Below, in pieces: positions 12,228 to 31,460 of a stretch of DNA of 64,000 nt. This DNA is from Natronobeatus ordinarius (GTDB lineage Archaea; Halobacteriota; Halobacteria; Halobacteriales; Natrialbaceae), in contig NZ_CP101456.1 of the NCBI RefSeq assembly GCF_024362485.1, positions 806,001 through 870,000 on the forward strand, given 5' to 3'. The notes below the pieces were generated by a model. It was not told the origin of the DNA, ran no database searches, and worked only from the letters and a program-made list of their open reading frames with translations. How positions within the stretch are numbered: position 1 is the first letter of the stretch; each line of letters begins with the position of its first letter. The translations under genes were made by a program, and so were the position numbers.

Positions 12228-12237
12228 GTGAAGCGCG

Positions 12238-12336
12238 TCACTCCGGTGCATGTTCAGTCTCCTCGACATATCGTTCAACCACCTCCTCCGACACCGCTCC
12301 TGTCGTCCCCACGTAGTAGTCAATCCGAAAGAATTC
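12238..12336 (-). pseudogene. C-terminal remnant of an IS200/IS605-type TnpA transposase
   Basis: On the minus strand the frame ending at a TGA (12238-12240) reads RIEFFRIDYYVGTTGAVSEE then VVERYVEETEHAPE. The YYVGTTGAVSEExVxRYVE pattern is the C-terminal tail of haloarchaeal IS200-family Y1 transposases. Nothing of the catalytic HUH region or Tyr helix remains upstream, where the plus-strand kinase gene begins at 12366. Read as the residue of an old insertion; a database comparison would settle it. Confidence 0.55.
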
Positions 12337-12365
12337 TATCCGACGATCCTGAGTTTCTGTCTGCA

Positions 12366-13835
12366 ATGGGTGAGCGGGAGCCGAGAGCTGGGGGGCTCTC
12401 GGAAACGACAGGAGACGCATACCGAACGATCGTCGACTATGCGGGACAGCCACTTTTTCTCGTCGACGTGGTTCACACGGGAGACGCGCCCCGGTTCGAG
12501 ATCGACCGATTCAACCTCGCCTACGAGGACCAGACCGGGCTGTCGCTCGAGGACGCCCGTGGCCTGACCCCGCGGGAGTGGCTCGGGGACGACGTCGGCT
12601 CGACGCTCGAGGAGAAGTATCACGAGTGTCTCGAGACGCAGGCACGACTCCGGTACGAGGAACGCCTCGAGTTCCCGTCCGGAACCGAAATCTGGGAGAC
12701 GACGCTCACGCCGGTGCTCGTCGACGGCGAGGTGTCCCAGCTCGTTGGGACCACTCGCGAGGTGACCGACCGGCGACGCGCCCGGCGCGAACGCACCCGC
12801 AGTCGCGACCTCCTCCGACACACGGAGGCGCTGGCGAACACTGGCGGATGGGAACTCGACGTCCGGACCGACGCGCTCCGCTGGACGCGCGGGACGCGTC
12901 GGATCTTCGGCGTCTCGGCGTCGTTCGAGCCGACGCTCGAGGACGCCCTCGCGTTCTACCACCCGGACGACCGGGACGCGATCCGGGACGCGATCGACCG
13001 CTGTCGAACCGACGGCGTGCCTTACGATCTCGAGGCGCGAATCGTCCGCGCCGATGGCCCGGAACGCTGGGTCCGATCACGGGGTGCAGCGGTCGTCGAG
13101 GACGGAGCCGTTCACACGTTGCGCGGGGCCGTCCAGGACGTTACCAGGACGCGACGTCAGGAACGTGAACTCGGGCGACAGAACGAACGGCTGGCGGCGT
13201 TCTCGAGGGTCGTCAGCCACGACCTTCGAAATCCGTTGAACGTCGCTCAGGGGGCGCTCTCGGTGGTTGAAACCGACAGCGAGCACGACGACCTCGAGCA
13301 GATCGCTGCGGCCCTCGACCGGATGGAAACGATCGTCGACGAGACGCTCGCCCTCGCTCGCGAGGGACAGGCTGTCGCCGACGTCGAGTGGGTCGACGTC
13401 GAACCGATCGTCGACGACTGCTGGCAACTGGTCGATACCACAGCCGCGACGCTCGAACTCGAGGTCGACGGCCGGATTCGTGCAGACGCCGATCGACTGC
13501 GACACGTCTATGAAAACCTGTTTCGTAACGCCGTCGAGCATAGCTCGACGAGCCCTCGTTCGCACGCTCGCGGGGACGATAGTGCCGGTGTGACCGTTCG
13601 TGTCGGCACTCTCGAGGACGGGTTCTTCGTCGAAGACGACGGCCCCGGGATTCCCGCTGCCGAGCGCGAGGCGATCTTCGAGCCGGGCTACACGACGGGT
13701 GACGGCAACACCGGATTCGGCCTCCCGATCGTCAGGCGGATCGCCGACGCTCACGGCTGGACGGTCACCGTCACGGACGGGCCGGCCGGCGGCGCCCGGT
13801 TCGAGTTTTCGGGGGTCGAACTCGAGAACGGATAG
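12366..13835 (+). CDS. Cytoplasmic PAS-PAS sensor histidine kinase
   Basis: A 489-residue soluble histidine kinase. Two PAS domains span residues ~15-135 and ~150-263 (the second with GGWELDVRTDALRWTRGTRR and a PAC-like end). A short coiled coil leads to the HisKA domain with the H-box AFSRVVSHDLRNPLN (His285 phospho-acceptor). The HATPase_c domain has the N-box ENLFRNAVEHS, the G1 box VEDDGPGIP and the G2 box NTGFGLPIVRRI. There is no transmembrane segment, so it should sense a cytoplasmic cue such as redox, light or a ligand. No response regulator is adjacent. Start is the ATG at 12366. Confidence 0.92.
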   Translation: MGEREPRAGGLSETTGDAYRTIVDYAGQPLFLVDVVHTGDAPRFEIDRFNLAYEDQTGLSLEDARGLTPREWLGDDVGSTLEEKYHECLETQARLRYEERLEFPSGTEIWETTLTPVLVDGEVSQLVGTTREVTDRRRARRERTRSRDLLRHTEALANTGGWELDVRTDALRWTRGTRRIFGVSASFEPTLEDALAFYHPDDRDAIRDAIDRCRTDGVPYDLEARIVRADGPERWVRSRGAAVVEDGAVHTLRGAVQDVTRTRRQERELGRQNERLAAFSRVVSHDLRNPLNVAQGALSVVETDSEHDDLEQIAAALDRMETIVDETLALAREGQAVADVEWVDVEPIVDDCWQLVDTTAATLELEVDGRIRADADRLRHVYENLFRNAVEHSSTSPRSHARGDDSAGVTVRVGTLEDGFFVEDDGPGIPAAEREAIFEPGYTTGDGNTGFGLPIVRRIADAHGWTVTVTDGPAGGARFEFSGVELENG

Positions 13836-17000: not shown

Positions 17001-18268
17001 CCGGAGCGAACCCACTTCTGCGAAAAGACGGCTCCTCTGGGGATTACACAACGACGCTGGGGCCGAGTGAGTCGGAGACGATCACGTTCTCAGTAACGCC
17101 ACATCCCGGTGACCACTCGATCCACGCCGACATCTCAGCCAACAGCATGTTCAGCGCCGGGTCGCCCAACGGGTATTACCGGTATCACACAACTGCTCCC
17201 CAGACGGCAACCGTGTACGGCGAGCCGATCGAACCGACCGAACTCGAGGGCGTCGTGCTCACCGACGCCGAACTCTCCACCGACTCGGCTATGCTCGGAG
17301 AGCCGTTCACGGTCGAAGCAACGCTACAGAATCTCGGAACGGAGTCGGTCACCGAATCGATCGAGGTGGCGGTCGGTTCCGATTCGACGGATACGTCGGT
17401 GACGATTGGCGGCGGGGCGTCGGAGACAATCGAGGTCACACTACGGGGTAGCGATGAAGGCGATGACCAGACGGTAACGGTCAACGGAATCGCGATTGGG
17501 ACGGTTCACGTAATCGAAACGGACCTCTGGCTTGCGAACCTCGACGCGGATTCGAATACGGTCGGTACCGGCGAGACGGTCACGATTACCGCAGCGTTAG
17601 AAAACCGCTACTATCCCTACGAACTGGCAACGAGCGACCTCGGGCTTTGGATCGACGGCGAAATCGTCCAGACGAAACACGTCGAAGTTCCGCCGTACTA
17701 CGAAGACGACTACGGAGCCAAGGAAGTCACGTTCGAACAGACGTTCGACTCGCCGGGCGAGTTTGAGGTGTTGGTCACCGGCGACGGCGTCTCGATCGAC
17801 GTGAATCCCGTCACCGTCGACGTCGAACTGGAACCCGGCTCGCCACCAGTCGCCGCGTTCGACTACGAGCCGACCGAACCCGAGGTCGGCGACGAGGTGA
17901 CTTTCGACGCGTCCGCCTCGAGTGCCCCTGAGGGAACGATCGCGGCGTACCGCTGGGATTTCACCGGCGATGGCACCGTCGACGTAACGACGACTGAGCC
18001 GGAGGCGACGTGGACCTACGACGAGGCGGGTGACTACAGCGTCACCCTCGAGGTCGAAGACGACACAGGCGAGACGGCTGAGACGACAGAGACGGTCGCG
18101 GTGACGGAGCCGGAACCGAGCGTCGCCGACTACGCCGACGCCGAGGACGGGGTCGTTCGGACCGACGGGCTTCGCGACGCGATCGACGACTGGAGAGACG
18201 ACGACGTGGACACCGACCTGCTTCGCGCCGTCATCGACGCCTGGCGAAGCGGTGAGCAGGTCGACTGA
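14042..18268 (+). CDS. Secreted giant protein: two beta-propeller regions, CARDB-like, PKD and dockerin-like domains
   Basis: 1408 residues. The N-terminus (residues ~1-37) is a haloarchaeal surface-protein signal (LFAVVFSILLIGSVVAPFVA). Residues ~80-425 and ~545-945 are PQQ-like beta-propeller regions with repeated LYVxxx...LYAFD/VYALD strands. CARDB/NEW3-like beta-sandwich domains lie at ~440-525 and ~955-1260. A PKD domain (~1270-1360, with AAYRWDFTGDGT) follows. The last ~47 residues (DGVVRTDGLRDAIDDW, DTDLLRAVIDAWRSG) form a dockerin-like helix pair seen at the ends of haloarchaeal exoproteins. There is no PGF-CTERM or transmembrane anchor, so it should be released or held through protein partners. 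Its signal sequence and promoter match the next gene. Confidence 0.85.
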   Translation: MYQCEQRTRTRAQLFAVVFSILLIGSVVAPFVAVAGATQEGAPVGDGVESGVDPASTTMVQPSLNPESSGEPIADDPAVRLDRLLGAEYDGFGDRGIASSDELLVVTNGTDRLEAFDAAGEPIWSTTLGDDLESKPVIDDGTVYVAISGETFSSDQLVALDASDGSLQWNSFDTAGVELYSDVPPVFGEYLYVFDPGDVFEPDDGESVYALDPSDGSIVWEQALDDTGHVQLAADDDAVYVVDDDHVRAFGGSSGDVLWNRGDWPLSGEVSAQPTIADGTLYVTADVDDTGALYAFDTADGVPLWRTPIPEEADLSPVVWNNGVFVASGSSIHGFDSLTGERNAMYQTAGEIQALELGAQLYVASKDPREYSGPGESLTALEHDLSVAWATSLPTMTGNLDRVAYPTALATIGDTLYVAGISEEFGTPEDNSLYVFEPTTLTVDDVEVVEDSATVGETITVEATVSNHGEQSETSEVTFEIDSPLTPTYLDHRTTEVSVGAGETTTTTLELEVTSSGTYEITAFESGTGGLASDPRVESVSVVVGHENPDDDWTQIGYDAAGSHWNPNTHAPTKPLMQTWEFETDGNVERNPVLVKDDTVVVHNDTTVFGLDLETGNQLWDYRISVPEEADDTEEIGSHVIVDDVVYFGMSYSVGHAGAEPRSRLYTIGLDDGELIDYRHFEDQRINLRSLSTDGDSLFFTMRVEDNGDNHGDRYLWAVDRHDFSNQKSQYFADDSEFNSGDQVLVTGDRLAIADRSYDTGSDTIRTFDRSTLELTASRTFDDGDIRTLITDGETIYLSLEPDEGGVYQLLALDPDDLSTTWQLAPEMYLQQEDKYDQHHGLVVSDSMLITATRGPFTSDHIAHYGIDTERGEVEWFESTNKQFETRLSQSPIVAADGVFYAGLKTYDAATGEHISFSKTGHPVAISNGTVLSVTDDGIGAYQGVEPISVSELELSATELEHGEELEATVVVTNPTPFAQPIRVDMTGANPLLRKDGSSGDYTTTLGPSESETITFSVTPHPGDHSIHADISANSMFSAGSPNGYYRYHTTAPQTATVYGEPIEPTELEGVVLTDAELSTDSAMLGEPFTVEATLQNLGTESVTESIEVAVGSDSTDTSVTIGGGASETIEVTLRGSDEGDDQTVTVNGIAIGTVHVIETDLWLANLDADSNTVGTGETVTITAALENRYYPYELATSDLGLWIDGEIVQTKHVEVPPYYEDDYGAKEVTFEQTFDSPGEFEVLVTGDGVSIDVNPVTVDVELEPGSPPVAAFDYEPTEPEVGDEVTFDASASSAPEGTIAAYRWDFTGDGTVDVTTTEPEATWTYDEAGDYSVTLEVEDDTGETAETTETVAVTEPEPSVADYADAEDGVVRTDGLRDAIDDWRDDDVDTDLLRAVIDAWRSGEQVD

Positions 18269-18492: not shown

Positions 18493-21400
18493 ATGTATCA
18501 GCACGAACACCGAACATTGTTGCGGACTCGAGTTTTTGCGGTCATGTTCTCTATTCTCATGGTGGGTTCTATCGTGGTTCCCTTCGCAGCTGTGACAGGA
18601 TCGGCGGACACGTCGGGTGACTGTCTGACCGTCGGTCCAGAGGAGAGCATCCAGGACGCCATCGACGCGGCAGATCCGTGGGAGACGATCTGCGTGGAGA
18701 CGGGAACCTACGACGAGAGTGTGCAGGTGGCCACCGAAGGAATCACCATTGTGGCGGCATCGGGAGCTGATCCGGTGTTGCAGGGCTCGTCGGGGACGGG
18801 TATCGAGGTCGACGGTGCCCACAACGTGACGATCGAGGGGCTGACGATCCAGGGATACGACAGCAACGGAGTTCGCGTTACCGGCGACGGTCACAATCTC
18901 ACCGTCCGTGACACGCACATCGAAGACAGCGGACGGGGGATCTGGCTCGAGAACAACGCCGCCTCGAACGCCGTCCTCGAGGACAACGAGATCGTGAACA
19001 ACGGTGTCAGGGCGATTCACATCGGGGAGAACAACGAGGGTGTGGAAGTCCGGGGGAACCACATCGCGGACAACGGCGGCGTCGGCATCAACGCCAGGTA
19101 CGCGCCGCACGCTGTCGTCGTCGACAACGTCCTCGAGGGCAACAGCGGAAACGGAATCGCCATCTGGGACGAGTACGCTGTCGTCCGGAACAACACCCTG
19201 AACGACAACGGTAACGTCGCCATAAGAATCTCTCACGACGGCGACCACGCGCTGGTCGAGGGGAACGAGGTCACCGGCGGCGGCGTCGGCATCGAGGCCA
19301 CGACGGTGGACAGCCCCGAAATCCGAAACAACACGATTACCAACGCGACGGTCGACGTCGAACTTGACCGCGTACAGACGGCCACGATCGTCGACAACGA
19401 CCTCGAGACCGGGATCGCCCTCGACGGCTCGGCCGACACGCTCGAGCACTTCGACCACGTCGCCACCGGAAACACGATCGGGGACGATCCGCTCGTTTTC
19501 GTCAGCGGCGAGGACGACCCGGAGATCCCCGATGACGCGGCGCAGGTTATCGTCGTGGACTCGACGAACGTCGAGGTTTCCGGCCACGCGTTCGACGGCG
19601 TCACCTCGGGGATCCAGATCGCGTACAGTCCCAACGCCGTCGTCACGGAGAACGACGTCTCGAACACCGGGAGTCACGGGATCCGGGTGTGGTCTTCCGA
19701 CGATGCGGTCGTGTCGGGGAACGAGCTGGTGAGCAACGGCGAGACCTCGCACGTCTCCGGAATCGGAATCCACGGCTCGGCCGGCGCCGTCGTCGCGGAT
19801 AACACGATCACCGACAGTAGCAGCCGGGCGCTCTCCGTCGGCGGCTCGCCCGACGCGATCGTCCGGAACAATTCGCTGATCGACAACCACAACGGTTTGT
19901 TCCTCTCGAGTTCGGACCGGCTGGAGGTCACGGACAACGAGATCACGGGCACGCACCACGGGGGAACGACCTCGAACTTCCGGTCAGCGATCCTCGTGAC
20001 CAGCGGGGAGTTCGTCGAAATACGCGGAAACGAGATCACGGACAACCACGTCAACGGTATCCACGACAACCGCGGGTCTAACTCGCAGTACGTCACGATC
20101 GAAGACAACCTCATCGCGAACAACGGTAACGAGGGAATCTACTGGTCGAGGAGCCACGACGCGACGATCCAGAACAACACCGTCACGGACAACGGTCGAG
20201 CCGGTATCAACGGACCGTCGCGAGCGATCGTCACCGACAACGACGTCAGCGGGAACTCGGTCGGCATCGACGTTTCACACGACTCGCTCGTGGCGAACAA
20301 CGTCGTCCAGGACAACCGCGGAAACGGCGTTGAGGCGAACGCCGACTCGACGGTGCGCGACAACACGATCGTCGACAACGGGAACACGGGTATCTACTTC
20401 CGGAACTTCGACGGCCAGCTCGTGGAGGATAACGAGGTCAGCGGTCACGCTGTCGACCTGTGGATTCACGAGACCGCCGACGTCACGGTCCGGCACAATT
20501 CGTTCGAATCCGGCGTGCTCTTACGGAGCCACTACGCCGAGTCCGAGGAACTGACCACGCACTCGTTCGTCAACAACACGGTCGGCGATCGGCCGCTACA
20601 CTACGTCCGCAACGACACCGGCGTCGAGGTCCCGGACGACGTCGGGCAGGTTATCGTCGTCAACTCGACGGACGTGACCGTCTCCGGCCTCGAGTTCGAG
20701 GGCGTCCCGGCCCCGGTCCAGGTCGCCTACAGCGACGCCGTGACGGTCGCCGACAACACGATCGCGAACGGGACCGACACGAGCACGAACCGGGGGGCGA
20801 TCACCGTCTGGGAGTCGACCCAGTCGACGATCCAGCGAAACGCGATCAGCGAGATGGGCGATCGAACGATCGGGATCGAGCTCATTAATGGAGGGCCCAC
20901 CGAGATCGCGAACAACACGATTACCGACGTCGGCTGGAACGGTATTACCGTCGACGACGTCGACGCTCCGACTATCGCCCAGAACACCGTGACGGACGCG
21001 GGTAGAGACGCCATCACCGTCACAAACGGTGACGCGCTGACGATCACCCAGAACACCGTGACGGGCGCCGATGGGGACGGCATCCACACGACCGTCGCCG
21101 ACGAGGGCTCGGGTGCAGACCTCGCGAATAACACGGTTTCGAACACCGAGCGAGGGATCGTGGTCGAGGCACAGGGGTGGAGTGCGCCCATCGTCAACGT
21201 GACCGTCCTCGACAACGTCCTCGAGCACAACTCGGTGGCCGGCCTCGAGGTCACCGACGAAGCCGAAGACGTGCAGGTGCACGGGAACGGCATTCAGGGC
21301 AACGGCGACGGCATCGTCTACAGTGAGTGGGACCCCGAATACGCACTGAACGCGACGAACAACTGGTGGGGCGCTGCGAACGGGCCGAGCGGCGGCGCCA

Positions 21401-24400
21401 CGGACCCCGAAACCGGAGCGATCGCGGACGGTGACGGAGATACCGTTGACGAGCAGGTCCTGTTCGACCCGTGGCTCGGTGACACCCCGATCGAGGAGGC
21501 GCTCTTCGACGTCTCGATCGTCTCGACCAACTCCCCGGTGGCAGAAACCGAGTCGCTCACCGTCGAGGTAGCCGTCGAGAATACGGGCGACGCCCAGGGG
21601 ACCCAGGACGTTATCCTCGAGCGGTTCGACGGAACCGTCGTCGACACCGCGAGCGTGACGCTCGCAGAGGGCCAGCAGGAAACGGTGACGCTCGAGTGGG
21701 AAACCGGAGCGGGCGACGCCGGAACGGGCCACGTTACGGTCCAGAGCGAGGATACCTCGGACAGCGAGCATGTCACGGTCGAGGCACCCTCCTCGGCCCA
21801 GCTCGTCATCACGGAACCCGGAGTGTACGAACTGGACGACGATCTCACGCTGCCGGGTGACGAACCGGCAGTGATCGTCGCCTCGAGCGACGTCGTCTTC
21901 GACGGGAACGGTCACACGATCACCAGCGAGAGTGGCGGGACGGCGATCGCCGCCCAGCACGTCGAGAACGTCACCGTCCGGGATCTGACGCTCGAAAACT
22001 GGCAGTACGGGATCGAGTTCGAACACGTCGAGAACGCCCTCATCGAGGACGTAACGGCGATCGACATCGGCCAGTCGGGAATCTGGTTGACCACCGTTAC
22101 CGACAGCACCGTTCGGAACAACGACCTGATCGAGAACCGGGATGGAATCGTCCTTCGGGAGTCGAGCACCGGCAACCTCGTCGAGTCCAACACGGTGGCG
22201 GAGAACCGACGGTACGGCTTCGCCGTCCGCCACTCGAGCGACAACACGCTCTCGAACAACGACGTGACCGGCGTCGAAGATCACGGATTCTTCGTGACCA
22301 GTAGTTCGAGCGGAAACAAGCTCGTCGAAAACACCGTGACCGACAGCGGAAGCTCGTGGGGCGATTCCGGTTTCCACGTCCGCGGCGACGACAACGTGCT
22401 CGAGGACAACGTCGCGACGGGGTCGTACTCCGAAGGGTTCGGCATCCGCGGCGATGGAAACGCCCTCGAGAACAACACGGCTCAGGACAGTGGCCGCGAG
22501 GGCTTCCGACTCGTCGATGCGAACGACAACGTCCTGACGAACACCACGGCGACGGGGAGTGACACGCACGGAATTCGATTCTGGAACGCCGTCGGAAACG
22601 AGCTCGAGACGGTCACCGCCCACGACAACGGTGACTGGGACGTGTTCTTCTGGGACGGCTCTCAGGACAACACCGTGTCGGAACTCACCGTCGGCGAATC
22701 GGTCGCCGAAACCACACTCGACGTCGACGGAACGGACGCCGGGATCGAGGGTGTCGAGACCGTCCCGCCGGCTCCGGACGACACGATCTCGCTCGACGCC
22801 TACTTCGTCGCGGCGGCCGAGGAATCCGGCGGCTCGCTCACCGTCGAGGTTCCGTACGAGGCGACCGACCTCGAGGAGGTCGACGAGGAGACGCTGGCAC
22901 TGTGGGACTACAACGACGACGCCCAGGAGTGGTCGCCCGTCGTCGACTCGTCGGTCGACACCGACGAGCGGGTCGTCACCGCGACACTCACCTCGGATTC
23001 GACGTTCGGCGTCTTCGGTGACTCCTCCCAGAGCGAGATCGAGGTGACCGAGACCAGCCTCAGTGACACGAACGTCGACACTGGGTCGGTCGTCACGATC
23101 GACGCGGCCGTCCAGAACGTCGGCGACGCCGCGGGTAGCCAGACTGTCGACCTCGAGGTCGACGGCGAGGTCGTCGACGAGGAGGCAGTTACCCTCGAGT
23201 CCGGCCAGACGACCGATCTGACGTTCACCCACCAGTTCGACCACGCTGGCGAGTTCGACGTGGTCGTCGCCGGCGAGTTCGTCGGAACCGTCACCGTCTC
23301 CGAGCCGGCCGACGATCCCGAGCCGGCGTTCTTCGGCGTCGAGCTCCTCGAGACGAACGCGCCAGTGCAGGCTGGCGACTCCCTCGAGGTCTCCGCGACG
23401 GTCGAGAACACCGGCGAGGAAGCCGACACGCAGTCGATCGAACTGGTCGCCGGAGGTGCGGTCGTCGACTCAGCCGACGTCACCCTCGACGAGGGCGAGA
23501 CGGAGACGGTCACGCTCACCTGGACGACCGGCGCCGACGACGTCGGCGAGGCCATCCCGCTCGAGGTGCGCAGCGACGACGACACCGACACTGCCACGGT
23601 GGCCGTCGAGGAGCCAGCTGGCGACGGAGAGCTCGTCGTTTACGGCGCAGAGGCAGATCGATCGCACGTGGCGCTCGACGAGACGGTGACCGTCTCGGGC
23701 GACCTCTACAACGGCGGGGACGCGGTGACGACCGAGACGGTCGCGCTCGAGGTCGACGGCGAGGTCGTCGACGAGGCGACGGCCAGCGTCCCGCCCGGAA
23801 TCTCCCGTGACGGCGTGGAACTCTCCTGGACGCCGACGGCTGTGGACCTCCCGGACGGTGAAGAGGAGATGAACGTGACCCTCACCCTCGATGGCTTCGT
23901 CGTCGACACCGTGACGGTCGAGAATCAGTACTCAGACGTTCAGGTGATCGCCGCCTCCGTCTCCGAGGTCGAGGCGGTCGAGGGCGACGACCTCTACGTC
24001 GTCGGCAGCATCTACCAGAACGGCACGATCGATGGGCCCGAAGAGATCGAACTCACCGCCACGAACACCGAGACCAACGAGACCGAGGTGCTCGGAACCC
24101 GGGACGTGACGCTCGAGCCGGGCTTCTACCACCTCGGCGCGCTCAACGTCTCGTTCACCCCCGACGAGGCCGGCACTTACGAGCTCGAGCTCGGCGAGCG
24201 AGCCGCCGGGACCATCGAGGTCCTGCCTGCCGAGTCGGACGTCCAGGTGATCGCCGCCAGCGTCTCCGAGGTCGAGGCGGTCGAGGGCGACGACCTCTAC
24301 GTCGTCGGCAGCATCTACCAGAACGGCACGATCGACGGCCCCGAAGAGATCGAGCTCATCGCCACGAACACCGAGACCAACGAGACCGAGGTGCTCGGAA

Positions 24401-27400
24401 CCCGGGACGTGACGCTCGAGCCGGGCTTCTACCACCTCGGCGCGCTCAACGTCTCGTTCACGCCCGAGGAGGCCGGCACCTACGAACTCGAGCTCGGCGA
24501 GCGAGCAGCCGGTACCATCGACGTCGAGGCCGCCGAATCGGACATTGACGTGATCGCCGCCTCCGTCTCCGAGGTCGAAGCCGTCGAGGGCGACGAGCTC
24601 TACGTCGTCGGCAGCATCTACCAGGGCGGCAACGTCGAGGGTCCCGAGACGATCGAACTCACCGCCACGAACACCGAGACCAACGAGACCGAGGTGCTCG
24701 AAACCCGGGACGTGACGCTCGAGCCGGGCTTCTACCACCTCGGCGCGCTCAACGTCTCATTCACCCCCGACGAGGCCGGCACGTACGAGCTCGAGCTCGG
24801 CGAGCGAGCCGCCGGGACCATCGAGGTCCTGCCTGCCGAGTCGGACGTACAGGTGATCGCCGCGAGCGTCTCCGAGGTCGAGGCGGTCGAGGGCGACGAA
24901 CTCTACGTCGTCGGCAGCATCTACCAGAACGGCACGATCGAGGGTCCCGAGACGATCGAGCTCACCGCCACGAACACCGAGACCAACGAGACCGAGGTGC
25001 TCGGAACCCGGGACGTGACGCTCGAGCCGGGCTTCTACCACCTCGGTGCGCTCAACGTCTCGTTCACACCCGACGAGGCAGGCACCTACGAGCTCGAGCT
25101 CGGCGAGCGAGCAGCCGGTACCATCGAAGTCGAGGCCGCCGAGTCGGACGTACAGGTGATCGCCGCGAGCGTCTCCGAGGTCGAGGCGGTTGAGGGCGAC
25201 GAACTCTACGTCGTCGGCAGCATCTACCAGAACGGCACGATCGACGGCCCGGAGACGATCGAGCTCACCGCCACGAACACCGACACCAACGAGACCGAGG
25301 TGCTCGGAACCCGGGACGTGACGCTCGAGCCGGGCTTCTACCACCTCGGCGCGCTCAACGTCTCGTTCACCCCCGACGAGGCAGGCACGTACGACCTCGA
25401 GCTCGGCGAGCGACACGCCGGCACCATCGAGGTCGAGGAGGCGTACTCCGACATCACCGTGATCGCAGCCTCCGTCTCCGAGGTCGAAGTCCTGCAGGGC
25501 GAAGAGCTCTACGTCACCGGAAGCATCTACCAGGGCGGCAACGTCGACGGTCCCGAGACGATCGAGCTCACCGCCACGAACACCGACACCAACGAGACCG
25601 AGGTGCTCGGAACCCAGGAAGTGACGCTCGAGCCGGGCTTCTACCACCTCGGCGCGTTGAACATCTCGTTCACGCCCGACGAACCGGGCGATTACGACCT
25701 CGAGCTGGGTGGCCGCGAGGTCGGCACGATCACCGTCGACGAGGTCGTCACCGACATCCGGGTGATCGGCTCGTCGGTCTCGGCGGTAGAAGTCATCGAG
25801 GGAGAGCCGGTTCACGTGACCGGGAGCATCTATCAGAACGGCAGCCACGAAGCGACCGAGACGATCGAGCTCACCGCCACGAACACCGACACCGGTGAGA
25901 GCGAGGTGGTGGGGAGCCAGGACGTCACCCTCGAACCCGGCTACTACCACCTCGGCGCGCTCAACATCACGTTCACGCCCGACGAACCGGGAACGTACGA
26001 CCTCGAGCTCGGCGATCACAACGCCGGCACGGTCGAGGTCGATCCCGCCGAGTCAGACATCCAGGTGATCGCCGCCAGCGTCTCAGAGATCGAGGCGGTC
26101 GAGGGCGACGACCTCTACGTCGTTGGCAGCATCTACCAGAACGGGACGATCGACGGCCCCGAAGAGATCGAACTCACCGCCACGAACACCGACACCGGCG
26201 AGACCGAGGTGCTCAGAACTCAGGACGTGACGCTCGAGCCGGGCTTCTACCACCTCGGTGCGCTCAACGTCTCGTTCACCCCCGACGAGGCCGGCACCTA
26301 CGAACTCGAGCTCGGCGAGCGAGCCGCCGGGACCATCGAGGTCCTGCCTGCCGAGTCGGACGTCCAGGTGATCGCCGCGAGCGTCTCCGAAGTCGAGGCG
26401 GTCGAGGGCGACGAGCTCTACGTCGTCGGCAGCATCTACCAGAACGGCACGATCGACGGCCCCGAAGAGATCGAACTCACCGCCACGAACACCGAGACCA
26501 ACGAGACCGAGGTGCTCGGAACCCGGGACGTGACGCTCGAGCCGGGCTTCTACCACCTCGGCGCGCTCAACATCTCGTTCACCCCCGACGAGGCCGGCAC
26601 GTACGAGCTCGAGCTCGGCGAGCGAGCCGCCGGGGCCATCGAGGTCCTGCCTGCCGAGTCGGACGTCCAGGTGATCGCCGCGAGCGTCTCCGAAGTCGAG
26701 GCGGTCGAGGGCGACGAACTCTACGTCGTCGGCAGCATCTACCAGAACGGGACGATCGACGGCCCCGAGACGATCGAACTCACCGCCACGAACACCGAGA
26801 CCAACGAGACCGAGGTGCTCGGAGCCCGGGACGTGACGCTCGAGCCGGGCTTCTACCACCTCGGCGCGCTCAACGTCTCGTTCGCCCTCGACGAGGCGGG
26901 CACCTACGAACTCGAGCTCGGCGAGCGAGCCGCCGGGACCATCGAGGTCCAGTCCGCCGAATCGGACGTGCAGGTGATCGCCGCGAGCGTCTCGGCGGTC
27001 GAACTCGCCGAGGGCGAGTCGGCCTACGCAATCGGAAGTATCTATCAGGCGGGGACCATCGAGGGGCCAGAGACGATCGAGCTCACCGCCACGAACACCG
27101 AGACCGGAGAAATCGAGGTGCTCGGCAGTCAGGAGGTGACGCTCGAGCCGGGCTGGTACCACCTCGGCGCGCTCAACGTCTCGTTCACGATCGAGGAGGC
27201 GGGGACGTACGACCTCGAGCTCGGCGACCGCAACGCGGGGACGTTCGAGGTCGTCGAACCGACCGTCGAACCGACCGTCGTCGCCGTGGAGGGCTACTCG
27301 AGCAGTGTCGACCCCGAGACGGGAGCCGACCTCGAGTACGCGAGCGACGACGCCACCGTCGAGATCGACGTCGACGCTGACCTCGACCTCGAAGAGGTGA

Positions 27401-29178
27401 CGCTCCTGGTCGACTCCCTCGAGACGACCTACACCGTCCCCGTCGACGCGACCCACCAGAGCGGCGATCGCTGGCACGCGTCGGTTCCGCTCGACGCGCT
27501 GCCTGACGACGGCCGGTACGCGCTGTCGGTGATCGCCGTGGACGAACGGGACAATGCGGGAATGGCCGACGCCTCGGAGATACTCGTGATCGACCGCGAG
27601 AAACCGTCGCTGTCGGTCACCATCGTCGACGTCGACGGCACCGACGCGACGGTGATCGTCGAGAGCGACGAGCCCCTCGACGACGTTCCCGTGGTGTCGG
27701 CCGAATTGACGGACGCGGACGTCGGTGCGACGTCGTCTGAGGACCTCGAGATGGAAGCCGTCGACGGCGACGGAACCGAGTTCACCGGAACGCTCGAGTT
27801 CGACGAGTCGGGCGAGTACACCGTCACCGCCGTCGGAACCGACCGCGCCGGCAACGTGGGAACGGACACCGCCTCCGTGGTCGTTGACACCCGCTTCACG
27901 CTCGCCGACGGCGCGATCGTCTTCGAGGAGACGGGGACCACGATCGAGTTCGACCTCGTTGACGACGCCGACGACGCGATCAAGAGCCAGGAACTGTTCG
28001 TTGCCCTCTCAGAAAACACCGTCAACGCGAACCTCGACGGCGGCGAACTCGGCGTCGGCTTCCTGACCGCCGACCTGGACAGCTTCATCGACTACCACCT
28101 CGAGGACGGCACGATCGAGGAGGCGACGATCTCGCTGGCGATCGACGAGGCGGAACTCCCCGGCGACGCCGACCTCGGCGACGTGGAGCTACATCACCAT
28201 GACGAACCCGCCGACGAGTGGACGACCGTCGACTCTAGCGTCGAGTACCTCGACGACGAGCCGTTCGCCGTCGCCGACGTGTCGCGCTTCTCGACGTACG
28301 GCGTGCTCGTGATCGACGAGGAGCCGCCCGAACTCGTGGACGTCTCACCCGACCCCGACGACCGACTCGAGGCGGAGACCGACGAGGTGACCGTCCGATT
28401 CGAGTACGAGGACGCGCTCTCGGGCGTGGACGTGCGTTCGATCGCGCTGTCGATCGACGGCGTGGACGTCACCGACGACGACGCCACCCAGATCACGTCG
28501 ACGACCGCGACGCACACGCTCACGGTCGACGACGGCAACTCGTACACGGCGACGGTCACCGTCGCGGACGAGGCGGGGAACGACGCGACCTACGAAACGA
28601 GCTTCGACGTGGACGAACTGGACGACGAACCGGATACGCCGTCCCCGCCACCGTCGACCGATCCAGACCCGGACGACTCTGACGACAGCGACGACGGCGA
28701 CTCGGACGACCGTGACGACTCCGGCACGGACGACGACGGCGACTCGGACGACCGTGATGACTCCGGCACGGACGACGACGGCGACTCGGACGACCGTGAC
28801 GACTCCGGCACGGACGACGACGGCACGGACGACGACGGCGACTCGGACGACCGTGATGACTCCGGCACGGACGACGACGGCACGGACGACGACGGCGACT
28901 CGGACGACCGTGACGACTCCGGCACGGACGACGACGGCGACTCGGACGACCGTGACGACTCCGGCACGGACGACGACGGCGACTCGGACGACCGTGATGA
29001 CTCCGGCACGGACGACGACGGCGACTCGGACGACTCCACCACGGACGACCAGCCTGTCCCGGCCGATGATGACGACGAACCGGGGGCTGACGACGACAGT
29101 ACGCCGGGCTTCGGTGCTGGATTCCTCGTCGTCGTGATCGTCAGCAGCGCGCTGGCGATCGCGCGACGACGGTCGTGA
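18493..29178 (+). CDS. Giant S-layer-linked surface protein: beta-helices, CARDB repeats, PGF-CTERM anchor
   Basis: 3561 residues. Signal peptide at ~1-37 (VFAVMFSILMVGSIVVPFAA). Right-handed beta-helix with dozens of NosD/PbH1 rungs (NxIxxNxxGI pattern) at ~42-996; a CARDB-like domain at ~1001-1095; a second beta-helix at ~1101-1410; a beta domain at ~1430-1515; three divergent CARDB domains at ~1515-1813; then eleven 101-residue repeats at 1814-2924. Ig-like domains (~2925-3375) lead to an Asp/Ser-rich linker and the terminal tripartite PGF-CTERM signal: TPGFGAGF, a hydrophobic helix, RRRS. The known system cleaves this signal with archaeosortase A and attaches lipid. Likely an adhesin or matrix protein; no enzymatic role shown. 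Confidence 0.88.
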   Translation: MYQHEHRTLLRTRVFAVMFSILMVGSIVVPFAAVTGSADTSGDCLTVGPEESIQDAIDAADPWETICVETGTYDESVQVATEGITIVAASGADPVLQGSSGTGIEVDGAHNVTIEGLTIQGYDSNGVRVTGDGHNLTVRDTHIEDSGRGIWLENNAASNAVLEDNEIVNNGVRAIHIGENNEGVEVRGNHIADNGGVGINARYAPHAVVVDNVLEGNSGNGIAIWDEYAVVRNNTLNDNGNVAIRISHDGDHALVEGNEVTGGGVGIEATTVDSPEIRNNTITNATVDVELDRVQTATIVDNDLETGIALDGSADTLEHFDHVATGNTIGDDPLVFVSGEDDPEIPDDAAQVIVVDSTNVEVSGHAFDGVTSGIQIAYSPNAVVTENDVSNTGSHGIRVWSSDDAVVSGNELVSNGETSHVSGIGIHGSAGAVVADNTITDSSSRALSVGGSPDAIVRNNSLIDNHNGLFLSSSDRLEVTDNEITGTHHGGTTSNFRSAILVTSGEFVEIRGNEITDNHVNGIHDNRGSNSQYVTIEDNLIANNGNEGIYWSRSHDATIQNNTVTDNGRAGINGPSRAIVTDNDVSGNSVGIDVSHDSLVANNVVQDNRGNGVEANADSTVRDNTIVDNGNTGIYFRNFDGQLVEDNEVSGHAVDLWIHETADVTVRHNSFESGVLLRSHYAESEELTTHSFVNNTVGDRPLHYVRNDTGVEVPDDVGQVIVVNSTDVTVSGLEFEGVPAPVQVAYSDAVTVADNTIANGTDTSTNRGAITVWESTQSTIQRNAISEMGDRTIGIELINGGPTEIANNTITDVGWNGITVDDVDAPTIAQNTVTDAGRDAITVTNGDALTITQNTVTGADGDGIHTTVADEGSGADLANNTVSNTERGIVVEAQGWSAPIVNVTVLDNVLEHNSVAGLEVTDEAEDVQVHGNGIQGNGDGIVYSEWDPEYALNATNNWWGAANGPSGGATDPETGAIADGDGDTVDEQVLFDPWLGDTPIEEALFDVSIVSTNSPVAETESLTVEVAVENTGDAQGTQDVILERFDGTVVDTASVTLAEGQQETVTLEWETGAGDAGTGHVTVQSEDTSDSEHVTVEAPSSAQLVITEPGVYELDDDLTLPGDEPAVIVASSDVVFDGNGHTITSESGGTAIAAQHVENVTVRDLTLENWQYGIEFEHVENALIEDVTAIDIGQSGIWLTTVTDSTVRNNDLIENRDGIVLRESSTGNLVESNTVAENRRYGFAVRHSSDNTLSNNDVTGVEDHGFFVTSSSSGNKLVENTVTDSGSSWGDSGFHVRGDDNVLEDNVATGSYSEGFGIRGDGNALENNTAQDSGREGFRLVDANDNVLTNTTATGSDTHGIRFWNAVGNELETVTAHDNGDWDVFFWDGSQDNTVSELTVGESVAETTLDVDGTDAGIEGVETVPPAPDDTISLDAYFVAAAEESGGSLTVEVPYEATDLEEVDEETLALWDYNDDAQEWSPVVDSSVDTDERVVTATLTSDSTFGVFGDSSQSEIEVTETSLSDTNVDTGSVVTIDAAVQNVGDAAGSQTVDLEVDGEVVDEEAVTLESGQTTDLTFTHQFDHAGEFDVVVAGEFVGTVTVSEPADDPEPAFFGVELLETNAPVQAGDSLEVSATVENTGEEADTQSIELVAGGAVVDSADVTLDEGETETVTLTWTTGADDVGEAIPLEVRSDDDTDTATVAVEEPAGDGELVVYGAEADRSHVALDETVTVSGDLYNGGDAVTTETVALEVDGEVVDEATASVPPGISRDGVELSWTPTAVDLPDGEEEMNVTLTLDGFVVDTVTVENQYSDVQVIAASVSEVEAVEGDDLYVVGSIYQNGTIDGPEEIELTATNTETNETEVLGTRDVTLEPGFYHLGALNVSFTPDEAGTYELELGERAAGTIEVLPAESDVQVIAASVSEVEAVEGDDLYVVGSIYQNGTIDGPEEIELIATNTETNETEVLGTRDVTLEPGFYHLGALNVSFTPEEAGTYELELGERAAGTIDVEAAESDIDVIAASVSEVEAVEGDELYVVGSIYQGGNVEGPETIELTATNTETNETEVLETRDVTLEPGFYHLGALNVSFTPDEAGTYELELGERAAGTIEVLPAESDVQVIAASVSEVEAVEGDELYVVGSIYQNGTIEGPETIELTATNTETNETEVLGTRDVTLEPGFYHLGALNVSFTPDEAGTYELELGERAAGTIEVEAAESDVQVIAASVSEVEAVEGDELYVVGSIYQNGTIDGPETIELTATNTDTNETEVLGTRDVTLEPGFYHLGALNVSFTPDEAGTYDLELGERHAGTIEVEEAYSDITVIAASVSEVEVLQGEELYVTGSIYQGGNVDGPETIELTATNTDTNETEVLGTQEVTLEPGFYHLGALNISFTPDEPGDYDLELGGREVGTITVDEVVTDIRVIGSSVSAVEVIEGEPVHVTGSIYQNGSHEATETIELTATNTDTGESEVVGSQDVTLEPGYYHLGALNITFTPDEPGTYDLELGDHNAGTVEVDPAESDIQVIAASVSEIEAVEGDDLYVVGSIYQNGTIDGPEEIELTATNTDTGETEVLRTQDVTLEPGFYHLGALNVSFTPDEAGTYELELGERAAGTIEVLPAESDVQVIAASVSEVEAVEGDELYVVGSIYQNGTIDGPEEIELTATNTETNETEVLGTRDVTLEPGFYHLGALNISFTPDEAGTYELELGERAAGAIEVLPAESDVQVIAASVSEVEAVEGDELYVVGSIYQNGTIDGPETIELTATNTETNETEVLGARDVTLEPGFYHLGALNVSFALDEAGTYELELGERAAGTIEVQSAESDVQVIAASVSAVELAEGESAYAIGSIYQAGTIEGPETIELTATNTETGEIEVLGSQEVTLEPGWYHLGALNVSFTIEEAGTYDLELGDRNAGTFEVVEPTVEPTVVAVEGYSSSVDPETGADLEYASDDATVEIDVDADLDLEEVTLLVDSLETTYTVPVDATHQSGDRWHASVPLDALPDDGRYALSVIAVDERDNAGMADASEILVIDREKPSLSVTIVDVDGTDATVIVESDEPLDDVPVVSAELTDADVGATSSEDLEMEAVDGDGTEFTGTLEFDESGEYTVTAVGTDRAGNVGTDTASVVVDTRFTLADGAIVFEETGTTIEFDLVDDADDAIKSQELFVALSENTVNANLDGGELGVGFLTADLDSFIDYHLEDGTIEEATISLAIDEAELPGDADLGDVELHHHDEPADEWTTVDSSVEYLDDEPFAVADVSRFSTYGVLVIDEEPPELVDVSPDPDDRLEAETDEVTVRFEYEDALSGVDVRSIALSIDGVDVTDDDATQITSTTATHTLTVDDGNSYTATVTVADEAGNDATYETSFDVDELDDEPDTPSPPPSTDPDPDDSDDSDDGDSDDRDDSGTDDDGDSDDRDDSGTDDDGDSDDRDDSGTDDDGTDDDGDSDDRDDSGTDDDGTDDDGDSDDRDDSGTDDDGDSDDRDDSGTDDDGDSDDRDDSGTDDDGDSDDSTTDDQPVPADDDDEPGADDDSTPGFGAGFLVVVIVSSALAIARRRS
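23932..27264 (+). repeat. Eleven tandem 303-bp in-frame repeats (101 aa each)
   Basis: Repeat starts (the Ser/Thr codon of S/T-D-V/I) lie at 23932, 24235, 24538, 24841, 25144, 25447, 25750, 26053, 26356, 26659 and 26962: exactly 303 bp each time with no indels. The unit reads SDVQVIAASVSEVEAVEGDE followed by LYVVGSIYQNGT, ELTATNTETNETEVLG, VTLEPGFYHLGALNVSFTPD and YELELGERAAGTIEV. It is CARDB-like. Copies 6, 7 and 11 are most diverged; copies 1, 2, 4, 5, 9 and 10 are nearly identical. Most copies carry three N-glycosylation sequons (NGT, NET, NVS/NIS). Confidence 0.95.
28696..29019 (+). repeat. Short tandem repeat encoding an Asp/Ser-rich cell-wall spanning linker
   Basis: Seven copies of a 42-bp unit encoding GDSDDRDDSGTDDD; two copies carry an additional 15-bp GTDDD block. 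All steps are multiples of three, so changes in copy number keep the frame. The tract lies between the Ig-like domains and the PGF-CTERM signal. Confidence 0.93.
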
Positions 29179-29326: not shown

Positions 29327-29352
29327 ATCGCCGCTCCCACCGATTGAGGCGC

Positions 29353-30528
29353 ATGGAGGAACGAACGAGGGCCTACCTCAGGGGGCGATTTCGAGACCAT
29401 TATCGCCGGACGGAGATCACGCTGCCACCGGCGGCCAACGAGCGCGAGTGGGGGTACATCCCCTGGACCGGTGGGCCGGGGACGACGATGGTTCGTCACC
29501 GATCGCTGCTCGAGCTCGGGGACGTCGGCGACTTTCTCGAGCGGGAACGACCCCGTCACGTCTACTTCTCGGCCGGCCGCTACCGGGATCCCGGCGCGGG
29601 GTCGATGAGCGAAAAGGAGTGGCAATCTTCTGACCTCGTGTTCGACCTCGACGCCGACCACCTCCCGGGCGTGACCCTCGGCGAGGACTCCTACGCCGAG
29701 ATGCTGGCGACGTGCAAGGACGCCCTGTTGCGACTGCTCGACTTCCTCGAGGACGATTTCGCCTTTTCCGACCTCGAGGTGGTCTTCTCGGGTGGGCGTG
29801 GCTACCACGTCCACGTCCGGGACGAGTCGGTTCAGCACCTCGACCGGGAACACCGCCGCGAGATCGTCGACTACGTTCGCGGCATCGGGCTGGACTTCGA
29901 GCAGCTGATCGAGACGGAGACGGTGGCGGGGCTTGGCCGGAAGACGCCGACCGAACGGCGCATCCTCGAGACCGACGGCGGCTGGGGGCGGCGAACCCAG
30001 CACCACTTCACCGCCTTTCTCGACGAGCTACTCGAGGCCCCCGAGGACGAGGCCCTGTCCCGGCTCCAGTCGTTCGACGGCATCGGCGAGGGGAAGGCGA
30101 ACGCGACTCTCAACGCCGCCCGGAACAATCGCGAGGGTATCGAGGCGGGCAACGTGACCGTCCACACGGCAGTCGCCCAGCTGGCCGAACGGTTCGCGAA
30201 GCGGGCGGTCGAACGCGACAACGCGCCGATCGACGAGCCAGTGACGACCGACACGAACCGACTGATCCGCCTCCCCGGAAGCCTCCACGGCGGGAGCGCC
30301 CTCGAGACGGTCCGGATCGATCGCCACGAGATCGACGCGTTCGACCCGCTGGTCGACGCCGTCCCCGAGACGTTCGTCGGCCACGAGATCGCCGTCTCCG
30401 TCAGTCGTGGGGGTGAGGTCGAACTGGGTGGCGATATCTTTACAGTCCCCGAGGGTGACCAGTCACTACCGGAGTACGTCGCGACCTTCCTCATGGCACG
30501 CGGCCGGGCCGAAAAGGAGAAAGAATGA
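29353..30528 (+). CDS. priS: DNA primase small (catalytic) subunit
   Basis: 391 residues, normal for archaeal PriS. It synthesises RNA/DNA primers with PriL at the replication fork. The catalytic carboxylates are in DLVFDLDADH (Asp98 and Asp100), and the nucleotide-binding SGGRGYHVHV (SxH motif) follows. The C-terminal region has NRLIRLPGSLHGGSAL, typical of primases. The ATG at 29353 (MEERTRAYL) fits the family; an in-frame ATG three codons upstream is possible. Its last four bases overlap the GINS start (ATGA), so the two are translationally coupled, a common archaeal arrangement. Confidence 0.96.
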   Translation: MEERTRAYLRGRFRDHYRRTEITLPPAANEREWGYIPWTGGPGTTMVRHRSLLELGDVGDFLERERPRHVYFSAGRYRDPGAGSMSEKEWQSSDLVFDLDADHLPGVTLGEDSYAEMLATCKDALLRLLDFLEDDFAFSDLEVVFSGGRGYHVHVRDESVQHLDREHRREIVDYVRGIGLDFEQLIETETVAGLGRKTPTERRILETDGGWGRRTQHHFTAFLDELLEAPEDEALSRLQSFDGIGEGKANATLNAARNNREGIEAGNVTVHTAVAQLAERFAKRAVERDNAPIDEPVTTDTNRLIRLPGSLHGGSALETVRIDRHEIDAFDPLVDAVPETFVGHEIAVSVSRGGEVELGGDIFTVPEGDQSLPEYVATFLMARGRAEKEKE

Positions 30529-31460
30529 ATTTAGAGGAGCTTCGAACGGTCCAGCACAAAGAGCGCCAGAAGGACAGTCTCCAGCACCTGCGACCGACCT
30601 TCTACCGCGACGTCGGCGAGTACATCGCCGAGCTCGAGGCCGAACGCGACCGCGTGGCCGCCGACGCCGACGACCCGTTCTCCTCGCCCCACGTCGGCCG
30701 ACTCACCGACGAGATCGAGACGGCGAAAGACGTCGTCGAGGCGATCTACGAACGGCGGATGGGCAAACTCGTCAAACAGGCGAGCCTCGCCGCGGCGGGG
30801 ATGCCCGCCGACGACGAGGGACTGACGGCCGAAGAGGCCGACCTCTTCTCTGACCTCGTCTCGCGAATCGAGTCGAACAAGGGCCGCGTCCTCGAGGTGC
30901 TCGACGGGGCCGAGACGACGGACTCGGCGAGCGCGACCGACGCGGCCCCGACGGACTCGACGCCCTCGAGCGACGCCCGGGAGGCCGACCAGACGGGCGC
31001 GCCGTCGGGCGCTGATCCGTCGGACGAGGTGCCGCCGGTTCCCCCGGAAGAACCACCCGTCGACGATATGATGGCTGACGGACCCGCCGCCACGGATTCC
31101 TCGGCGGACCGAGTCGACGTGGCCGACGTGATGGGCGGCGACGGACCCGACCCCACGCCATCCGAGCCGCCATCGTCCGCGTCAGCGCCGGGGGAGCCGT
31201 CGCCGGACCGTCCGGAGGCGGATCGACGCGAGCCAACGGCTGACGGGTCCGGCGACGCCGACAGGGTCGACGACGCAGCCGAGTCTCGCGAGTCGGCCAC
31301 GGCCGTCGACCGACTCACGGTGCGGATCACACAGGACGTCGGCTCGATCCTCGGCGTCGACGACCGCGAGTACACACTCGCGTGCGACGACGTCGTGACG
31401 CTGCCCGAGCAGAACGCCACGCCGCTGGTCGAACGCGACGCGGCCGAACCACTCGAGTGA
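30525..31460 (+). CDS. DNA replication factor GINS (Gins51-type subunit)
   Basis: 311 residues. The N-terminal ~130 residues are the helical GINS A domain (EELRTVQHKERQKDSLQHLR, ETAKDVVEAIYERRMGKLV). A long acidic, Pro/Ser/Asp-rich linker (~130-260) follows, then a small C-terminal B domain (VRITQDVGSILGVDDREY...LPEQNATPLVERDAA). This A-then-B order is that of Gins51/archaeal GINS, part of the CMG-like helicase with MCM and GAN/RecJ. The linker is unusually long, as commonly seen in halophiles. It overlaps priS by 4 bp. Confidence 0.9.
   Translation: MNLEELRTVQHKERQKDSLQHLRPTFYRDVGEYIAELEAERDRVAADADDPFSSPHVGRLTDEIETAKDVVEAIYERRMGKLVKQASLAAAGMPADDEGLTAEEADLFSDLVSRIESNKGRVLEVLDGAETTDSASATDAAPTDSTPSSDAREADQTGAPSGADPSDEVPPVPPEEPPVDDMMADGPAATDSSADRVDVADVMGGDGPDPTPSEPPSSASAPGEPSPDRPEADRREPTADGSGDADRVDDAAESRESATAVDRLTVRITQDVGSILGVDDREYTLACDDVVTLPEQNATPLVERDAAEPLE

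Follow-up and report, generated by a model that had tools for sequence, protein, structure and literature searches.

The window analysed here, a 64,000-nucleotide stretch of the Natronobeatus ordinarius genome (contig NZ_CP101456.1, positions 806,001 to 870,000; G000:C1:806001-870000 of a 4.21 Mb genome), encodes a protein of 3561 amino acids, P0001, in which repeat units follow one another in a long tandem array. Comparison with relatives indicates that the number of units is nearly fixed and that one recognisable unit marks the middle of the array, and we put at about even the chance that P0001 is a fibrillar surface protein whose stalk keeps two matched arms about a marked midpoint unit. 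Recombination of near-identical repeats adds or removes units, and tandem-domain surface stalks are for this reason regarded as free to change in length. Here the units recombine and are homogenised within each genome, yet 11, 9 or 7 of them are kept, and the array is therefore a natural test of what fixes the count of such units. Among open-licence papers we found none describing a tandem surface array whose count is fixed and whose centre is marked, and the array plan can be checked with existing strains.

All eleven copies in the window lie in frame within a single open reading frame (ORF; 18493-29178, forward strand, as are all window features given below). A repeat search recovered eleven repeat starts with all ten start-to-start steps of exactly 303, and Tandem Repeats Finder (TRF) reported a period of 303 with 11.0 copies (23935-27252, score 4514). 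The array was therefore delimited, also by comparison of the copies, as 11 units of 101 amino acids (303 bp each) at 23932-27264, as the initial annotation had claimed. That annotation also described some copies as near-identical and copies 6, 7 and 11 as diverged, and both descriptions hold: DNA identity is 88–96% among copies 1-5 and 8-10, and 74–83% between copies 6, 7 and 11 and the others. Third codon positions carry 412 of the 677 differences among copies 1-5 and 8-10, and nonsynonymous divergence (dN) among array copies is well below synonymous divergence (dS), indicating that the copies are real and under purifying selection. Unit 1 (23932-24234) stands at an end-cap position and is distinct in most relatives, although here it is homogenised with the arms. 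Units 2-5 (24235-25446) form the homogenised left arm, units 8-10 (26053-26961) the homogenised right arm, and unit 11 (26962-27264) the other end cap. Between the arms lie unit 6 (25447-25749), the centre unit at the exact midpoint, where a class hidden Markov model (HMM) built from 9-unit arrays peaks, and unit 7 (25750-26052), a second signature unit at which alone the corresponding 9-unit class HMM exceeds the generic model, by 17 bits.

To compare arrays between genomes, a unit profile was run on homologous genes of 27 of 125 family genomes and on 21 loci of a named collection. This yielded 36 non-redundant arrays, mostly from soda-lake Natrialbaceae, of which three (L070, L090, L095) were incomplete or gapped. 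Unit scores were 76 bits or more and those of every other match below 20 bits, so that the counts are clean. Sixteen arrays had 11 units, 14 had 9, two had 8 and one had 7, so that 30 of the 33 resolved arrays contained 11 or 9; no 10-unit intermediate was found among the resolved arrays. Finished records gave 11, 9, 9, 9, 7 and 7 units. The initial annotation would have been refuted by the absence of any similar protein from relatives, but 27 of the 125 family genomes have one; in viral contigs, a search found no relative. It had also raised copy-number variation, which is largely refuted between species, the count being nearly fixed at 11 or 9 and the centre conserved. Within species, one strain pair (Natrarchaeobaculum) has the same count, and is 99.9% identical over the gene and hence barely informative.

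The position of the centre proved transferable between array classes. When models built from 9-unit arrays were applied to the 16 arrays of 11, the centre unit fell at position 6 in all 16 and its partner at position 7 in 15; models built from 11-unit arrays placed the centre at position 5 and the partner at position 6 of 9-unit arrays, each in 12 of 14. In the remaining cases (L062, L071, L078) this junction could be recognised by eye: the first unit ends in VAVEEAI or a similar string, and the next starts with TDI. The central junction falls at 4/5 in the 7-unit array L063, and also at 4/5 in both 8-unit arrays. The centre unit is thus the exact midpoint in arrays of 11, 9 and 7. Around the caps and the central pair, the arm units number 4+3 in arrays of 11, 3+2 in arrays of 9, and 2+1 in the array of 7.

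Identity among units follows the same division. Arm units (2-5, 8-10) are 79–88% identical within an array, compared to 67–69% between genomes, whereas unit 7 is 72% alike between genomes, 58–65% alike to other positions and 60–70% to its neighbours. A conserved unit 7 and homogenised arms together imply that the array consists of fixed signature units (first, centre, centre+1 and last) and homogenised arms. In L033, units 3 and 7 lie to either side of the centre and yet share 100% protein identity, which on this comparison is a sign of gene conversion between the arms with the centre kept.

In a maximum-likelihood tree built from the four signature units, arrays of 9 and of 11 are intermingled: L029 (11) and L075 (9) form a sister pair (support 100/100), and L065 (11) groups with L036 and L067 (both 9; support 100/99). 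The minimum number of changes between 9 and 11 on this tree is 8, with a range of 7–9 over 1000 bootstrap trees, and a single clade of all 9-unit arrays was rejected by the approximately unbiased test (p-AU 4e-40). In the comparisons L029/L075 and L065/L036, unit 1 matches 1, 6 matches 5, 7 matches 6 and 11 matches 9; when L038 and L034 were compared with L033, the centre pair matched clearly and the end units less so. By these matches, every switch between 9 and 11 is an alteration of both arms by one unit, the number of such events being estimated from the trees.

The initial annotation had read the strict 303-bp spacing as evidence that each unit must keep its length, and this is not borne out. 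Steps between units in homologous arrays range from 99 to 114 residues (105–106 throughout L036, 101–114 in L035, 99–101 in L034), ruling out 101 residues as a general, rigid unit length. Given 88–96% identity among copies 1-5 and 8-10, no insertions or deletions among them would be expected, and the exact spacing in the window results from recent homogenisation of most copies and the short divergence of the rest. Unit length merely tends to uniformity within one genome, and homogenisation explains this.

The kinship of the unit to the CARDB family (PF07705) is visible at the level of profiles. A Pfam scan of six unit sequences gave no CARDB match even at E values up to 1, and none of the Pfam families reached its cut-off on any single unit. 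The unit profile aligned to the four CARDB domains of P0001 itself with an hhalign probability of 94.6% (E 6.6e-8), the alignments being small. The term 'CARDB-like' used in the initial annotation is therefore fair for the unit on profile similarity, while 'CARDB' is not established. Like CARDB, the unit is predicted to be all-beta, with about 100 residues; unlike CARDB, it does not match PF07705 in Pfam, and PGFYHLGALN and GSIYQ are conserved motifs of its own. Prediction of two adjacent units, as the initial annotation had proposed, gave confident all-beta folds of about 100 residues each for the central pair (predicted local distance difference test score, pLDDT, 94.8), while the arrangement of the pair was not settled (predicted template modelling score, pTM, 0.63). 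Foldseek searches against the PDB returned only generic tandem matches of immunoglobulin (Ig)-like type (TM-score 0.25–0.36), among them transglutaminase C-terminal domains, RbmA and complement MG domains. In 333 of 345 units the N72 column carries an N-glycosylation sequon, one per unit, and the window array contains 27 sequons.

The regions on either side of the array point to a protein that is exported and attached at the cell surface. A putative signal peptide region (18493-18612) has a basic start followed by the hydrophobic stretch FAVMFSILMVGSIVVPFAAV, as read from the translation, a pattern common to homologues. It is followed by a right-handed beta-helix region (18613-21483, boundaries approximate; nine stretches each of PF13229 and PF05048), a CARDB domain (21499-21789; three stretches of PF07705 and similarity to the other CARDB domains), and a second beta-helix region (21796-22701; PF13229/PF05048, best stretch amino acids 1148-1286). 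Three further CARDB domains directly precede the array (23032-23931; best PF07705 stretch amino acids 1621-1697) and belong to the D11 repeat family, at 23032-23307, 23326-23616 and 23626-23931, with spacings of 291 and 303. Downstream of the array are a conserved Ig-like region (27265-28638; PF13754/PF19077-type matches), with about 50% identity between genera in the alignment, and an acidic linker rich in Asp, Ser and Thr (28639-29103), in which TRF detected a 42-bp tandem repeat of 8.5 copies (28689-29034). The protein ends in a PGF-CTERM-like tail (29104-29175) with a PGF motif, a hydrophobic stretch and a basic C-terminal end (ARRRS), read directly as PGFGAGFLVVVIVSSALAIARRRS. P0001 scored 18.3 bits against TIGR04126 (PGF-CTERM), below the NCBIfam cut-off of 24.5; the model matched 15 of 23 homologues (E up to 0.01), and the PGF motif was found in nearly all of them. 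The composition of P0001 is very acidic (22% D+E, 2.6% K+R). Among 23 N-terminal regions examined with Pfam, the heads of relatives also include PQQ propellers or carboxypeptidase-regulatory domains, and no known adhesive domain occurs among the 25 of 33 families listed. The array protein of L085 ends in a dockerin-like stretch rather than PGF.

In many relatives the array gene stands among signalling genes. Recurrent flanking genes encode a HisKA_7TM-PAS histidine kinase, a receiver-HATPase protein, and a HxlR-type helix-turn-helix protein with a receiver-like part. In five loci (L037, L062, L063, L065, L075) an HxlR gene, the array gene and a seven-transmembrane (7TM) kinase gene follow one another in this order and on the same strand, separated by about 70–380 bp and 4–125 bp. 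With wider flanks taken into account, about 19 of 35 loci have an HxlR gene close to the array and about 21 of 35 a 7TM kinase, and in about 20 of 35 the array gene adjoins one of the three kinds of flanking gene. This conserved signalling neighbourhood was noted at L062, L063, L065, L037, L075, L064, L067, L030, L072, L029/L106, L033/L112, L036/L115 and L035/L119. An HxlR homologue was present in 27 of 27 array-bearing genomes of the family compared to 22 of 98 array-lacking ones (Fisher p 2.7e-14, a value that is too small because the genomes share ancestry), and the trio of kinase, receiver-HATPase and HxlR genes also occurs without the array. The operon-like locus in many relatives suggests that the array protein probably forms a surface structure that is under regulation or has a sensing role, in which sensing would be coupled to the kinase. 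HisKA_7TM kinases and HxlR-REC-HalX regulators are known haloarchaeal two-component systems (PMC5847659), and the neighbour genes of relatives share these domains; in the open-licence papers searched, we found nothing that connects such systems with a giant surface array protein. The linked 7TM kinase and HxlR regulator would offer a testable route into surface sensing and control by haloalkaliphilic archaea.

The mechanism that we propose builds on the domain order, counts, homogenisation, midpoint, sequon conservation and locus linkage described above. P0001, from a haloarchaeal lineage rich in haloalkaliphiles, would be secreted and probably anchored to a membrane lipid via its PGF-CTERM-type tail, so that the beta-helix head is projected on a presumably rod-shaped stalk of Ig/CARDB-like domains, which may be glycosylated. 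The stalk would be built from a cap at either end, a marked pair at the centre and two arms of matched unit number. Matched arms would be required because the array works as a single assembly, formed either by antiparallel pairing with a second copy or by folding back on itself at the centre; secondarily, the array may set a fixed reach. It is possible, although we regard it as doubtful, that the protein is more specifically a two-fold symmetric device in which the centre unit is the pivot for pairing of the two matched arms. Pairing would then be antiparallel between two molecules, possibly on two cells, or would produce a hairpin within one, and units would be gained and lost in both arms together. 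If true, this would be a new way for a tandem-domain surface protein to be counted.

Several observations weigh against a stalk with matched arms about a midpoint. The 8-unit arrays L069 and L072 break the odd parity, their midpoint lying between the pair with equal numbers on each side; L084 may contain 10 units plus a degenerate eleventh; and the array of L070 has an assembly N gap inside it. The window locus itself has neither a 7TM kinase nor an HxlR gene adjacent to the array gene, the HxlR homologue of this genome being located about 114 kb away (G000:C1:949315). A mirror or parity pattern in unit identity is not general among the arrays: a palindromic or even/odd pattern was hinted at by L030 and by mean identities, but same-parity units were more alike than units of different parity in 6 of 15 eleven-unit arrays and 4 of 14 nine-unit arrays. 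The tree-based counts presuppose a shared history of the signature units, and whole-array recombination could inflate them. AlphaFold2 prediction of the full array (pTM 0.30) speaks neither for nor against pairing or a hairpin.

A small spread of counts and conservation of the order head, stalk, anchor would also be expected if the stalk had a fixed reach, its total length being selected to clear the S-layer or to match a partner, and if the central pair were an inherited bystander. The wide variation in length of the acidic linker and N-terminal head among the same genes, unlike that of the array, fits this explanation as well. Selection on reach fixes the total, however, and not the centre; it would allow 10 units, or the loss of two units from one arm to leave arms of (2,3) or (4,1), and none of these occurs among the resolved arrays. 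We regard it as unlikely. It appears rather improbable that the array is an ordinary stalk of the kind found in bacterial Periscope Proteins, with little variation in count owing to a recent shared ancestor and a small sample. The highly similar tandem domains, N-terminal head and C-terminal anchor agree with such a stalk, and recombination among units is evident, as between units 3 and 7 of L033, but units are 55–75% identical between genera and yet 11 and 9 recur, with 7–9 or more independent switches. In Periscope Proteins, by comparison, even similar strains differ in repeat number, and this variation is greatest where repeat identity is highest (PMC8201768). Finally, the 303-bp pattern might reflect an assembly or collapse artefact, which the initial annotation had named as a refutation; tandem repeats are hard to assemble, as the gap within the array of L070 illustrates. 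The units differ by 4–26% in DNA, the contig is 4.08 Mb long, and similar arrays with the same plan are present in finished records of relatives, making an artefact highly improbable.

In Periscope Proteins (SasG, Rib, Sgo_0707), described in bacteria, repeat number varies between close strains (PMC8201768). P0001 resembles them in its tandem folded domains, 8 of the 11 window units being 88–96% identical in DNA and the unit being predicted to fold as a beta sandwich, and in DNA-level similarity that permits recombination. By sequence, P0001 has an N-terminal head and a PGF-CTERM-like tail, which may correspond to the projected functional domain and the anchor of Periscope stalks. It differs in that arrays from different genera nearly always have 11, 9 or 7 units and a marked midpoint; variation in count of the kind seen between Periscope strains is not observed between species (30 of 33 arrays have 11 or 9), and the comparison of strains comprises one pair. 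Fibrillar adhesins (PMC9210967) likewise share with P0001 a very long protein, a repetitive stalk, a surface anchor and a distal region, features that we recognise in the translated gene only, but the head of the array protein is a beta-helix, with no known adhesive domain among the families listed. The initial annotation's description of a very large haloarchaeal adhesin-like array thus holds for a giant, putatively secreted and surface-anchored protein with tandem Ig/CARDB-like domains, and a role as stalk or adhesin is plausible given its architecture.

Upstream of the array gene in the window is P0002 (14042-18268), which domain matches identify as a protein with PQQ propeller, CARDB and PKD domains. 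Its signal region is near-identical to that of P0001 and its C-terminus is dockerin-like (18134-18268), similar to the end of the L085 array protein; no clear P0002 orthologue was found beside the arrays of relatives. Beyond P0002 lies a gene for a PAS-PAS histidine kinase that lacks a 7TM region (12228-13832; domain matches). The genes immediately following the array gene, in the same orientation, are DNA primase small subunit-like and GINS-like (29344-31460). Between two strains of Natrarchaeobaculum sulfurireducens (L133 and L134), array and kinase are shared at 99.9% identity; one strain has a 5'-truncated array gene and lacks the HxlR and receiver genes upstream of it. A head swap between these two strains, to which their annotation had pointed, was ruled out, since the shorter gene is a 5' truncation that is 99.9% identical elsewhere. 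The array-bearing loci L079-L099 of the named collection span three haloarchaeal families, and almost all of their holders come from genera or samples that we take to be haloalkaliphilic (soda lakes). This shared habitat across three families may reflect habitat-linked transfer of the arrays.

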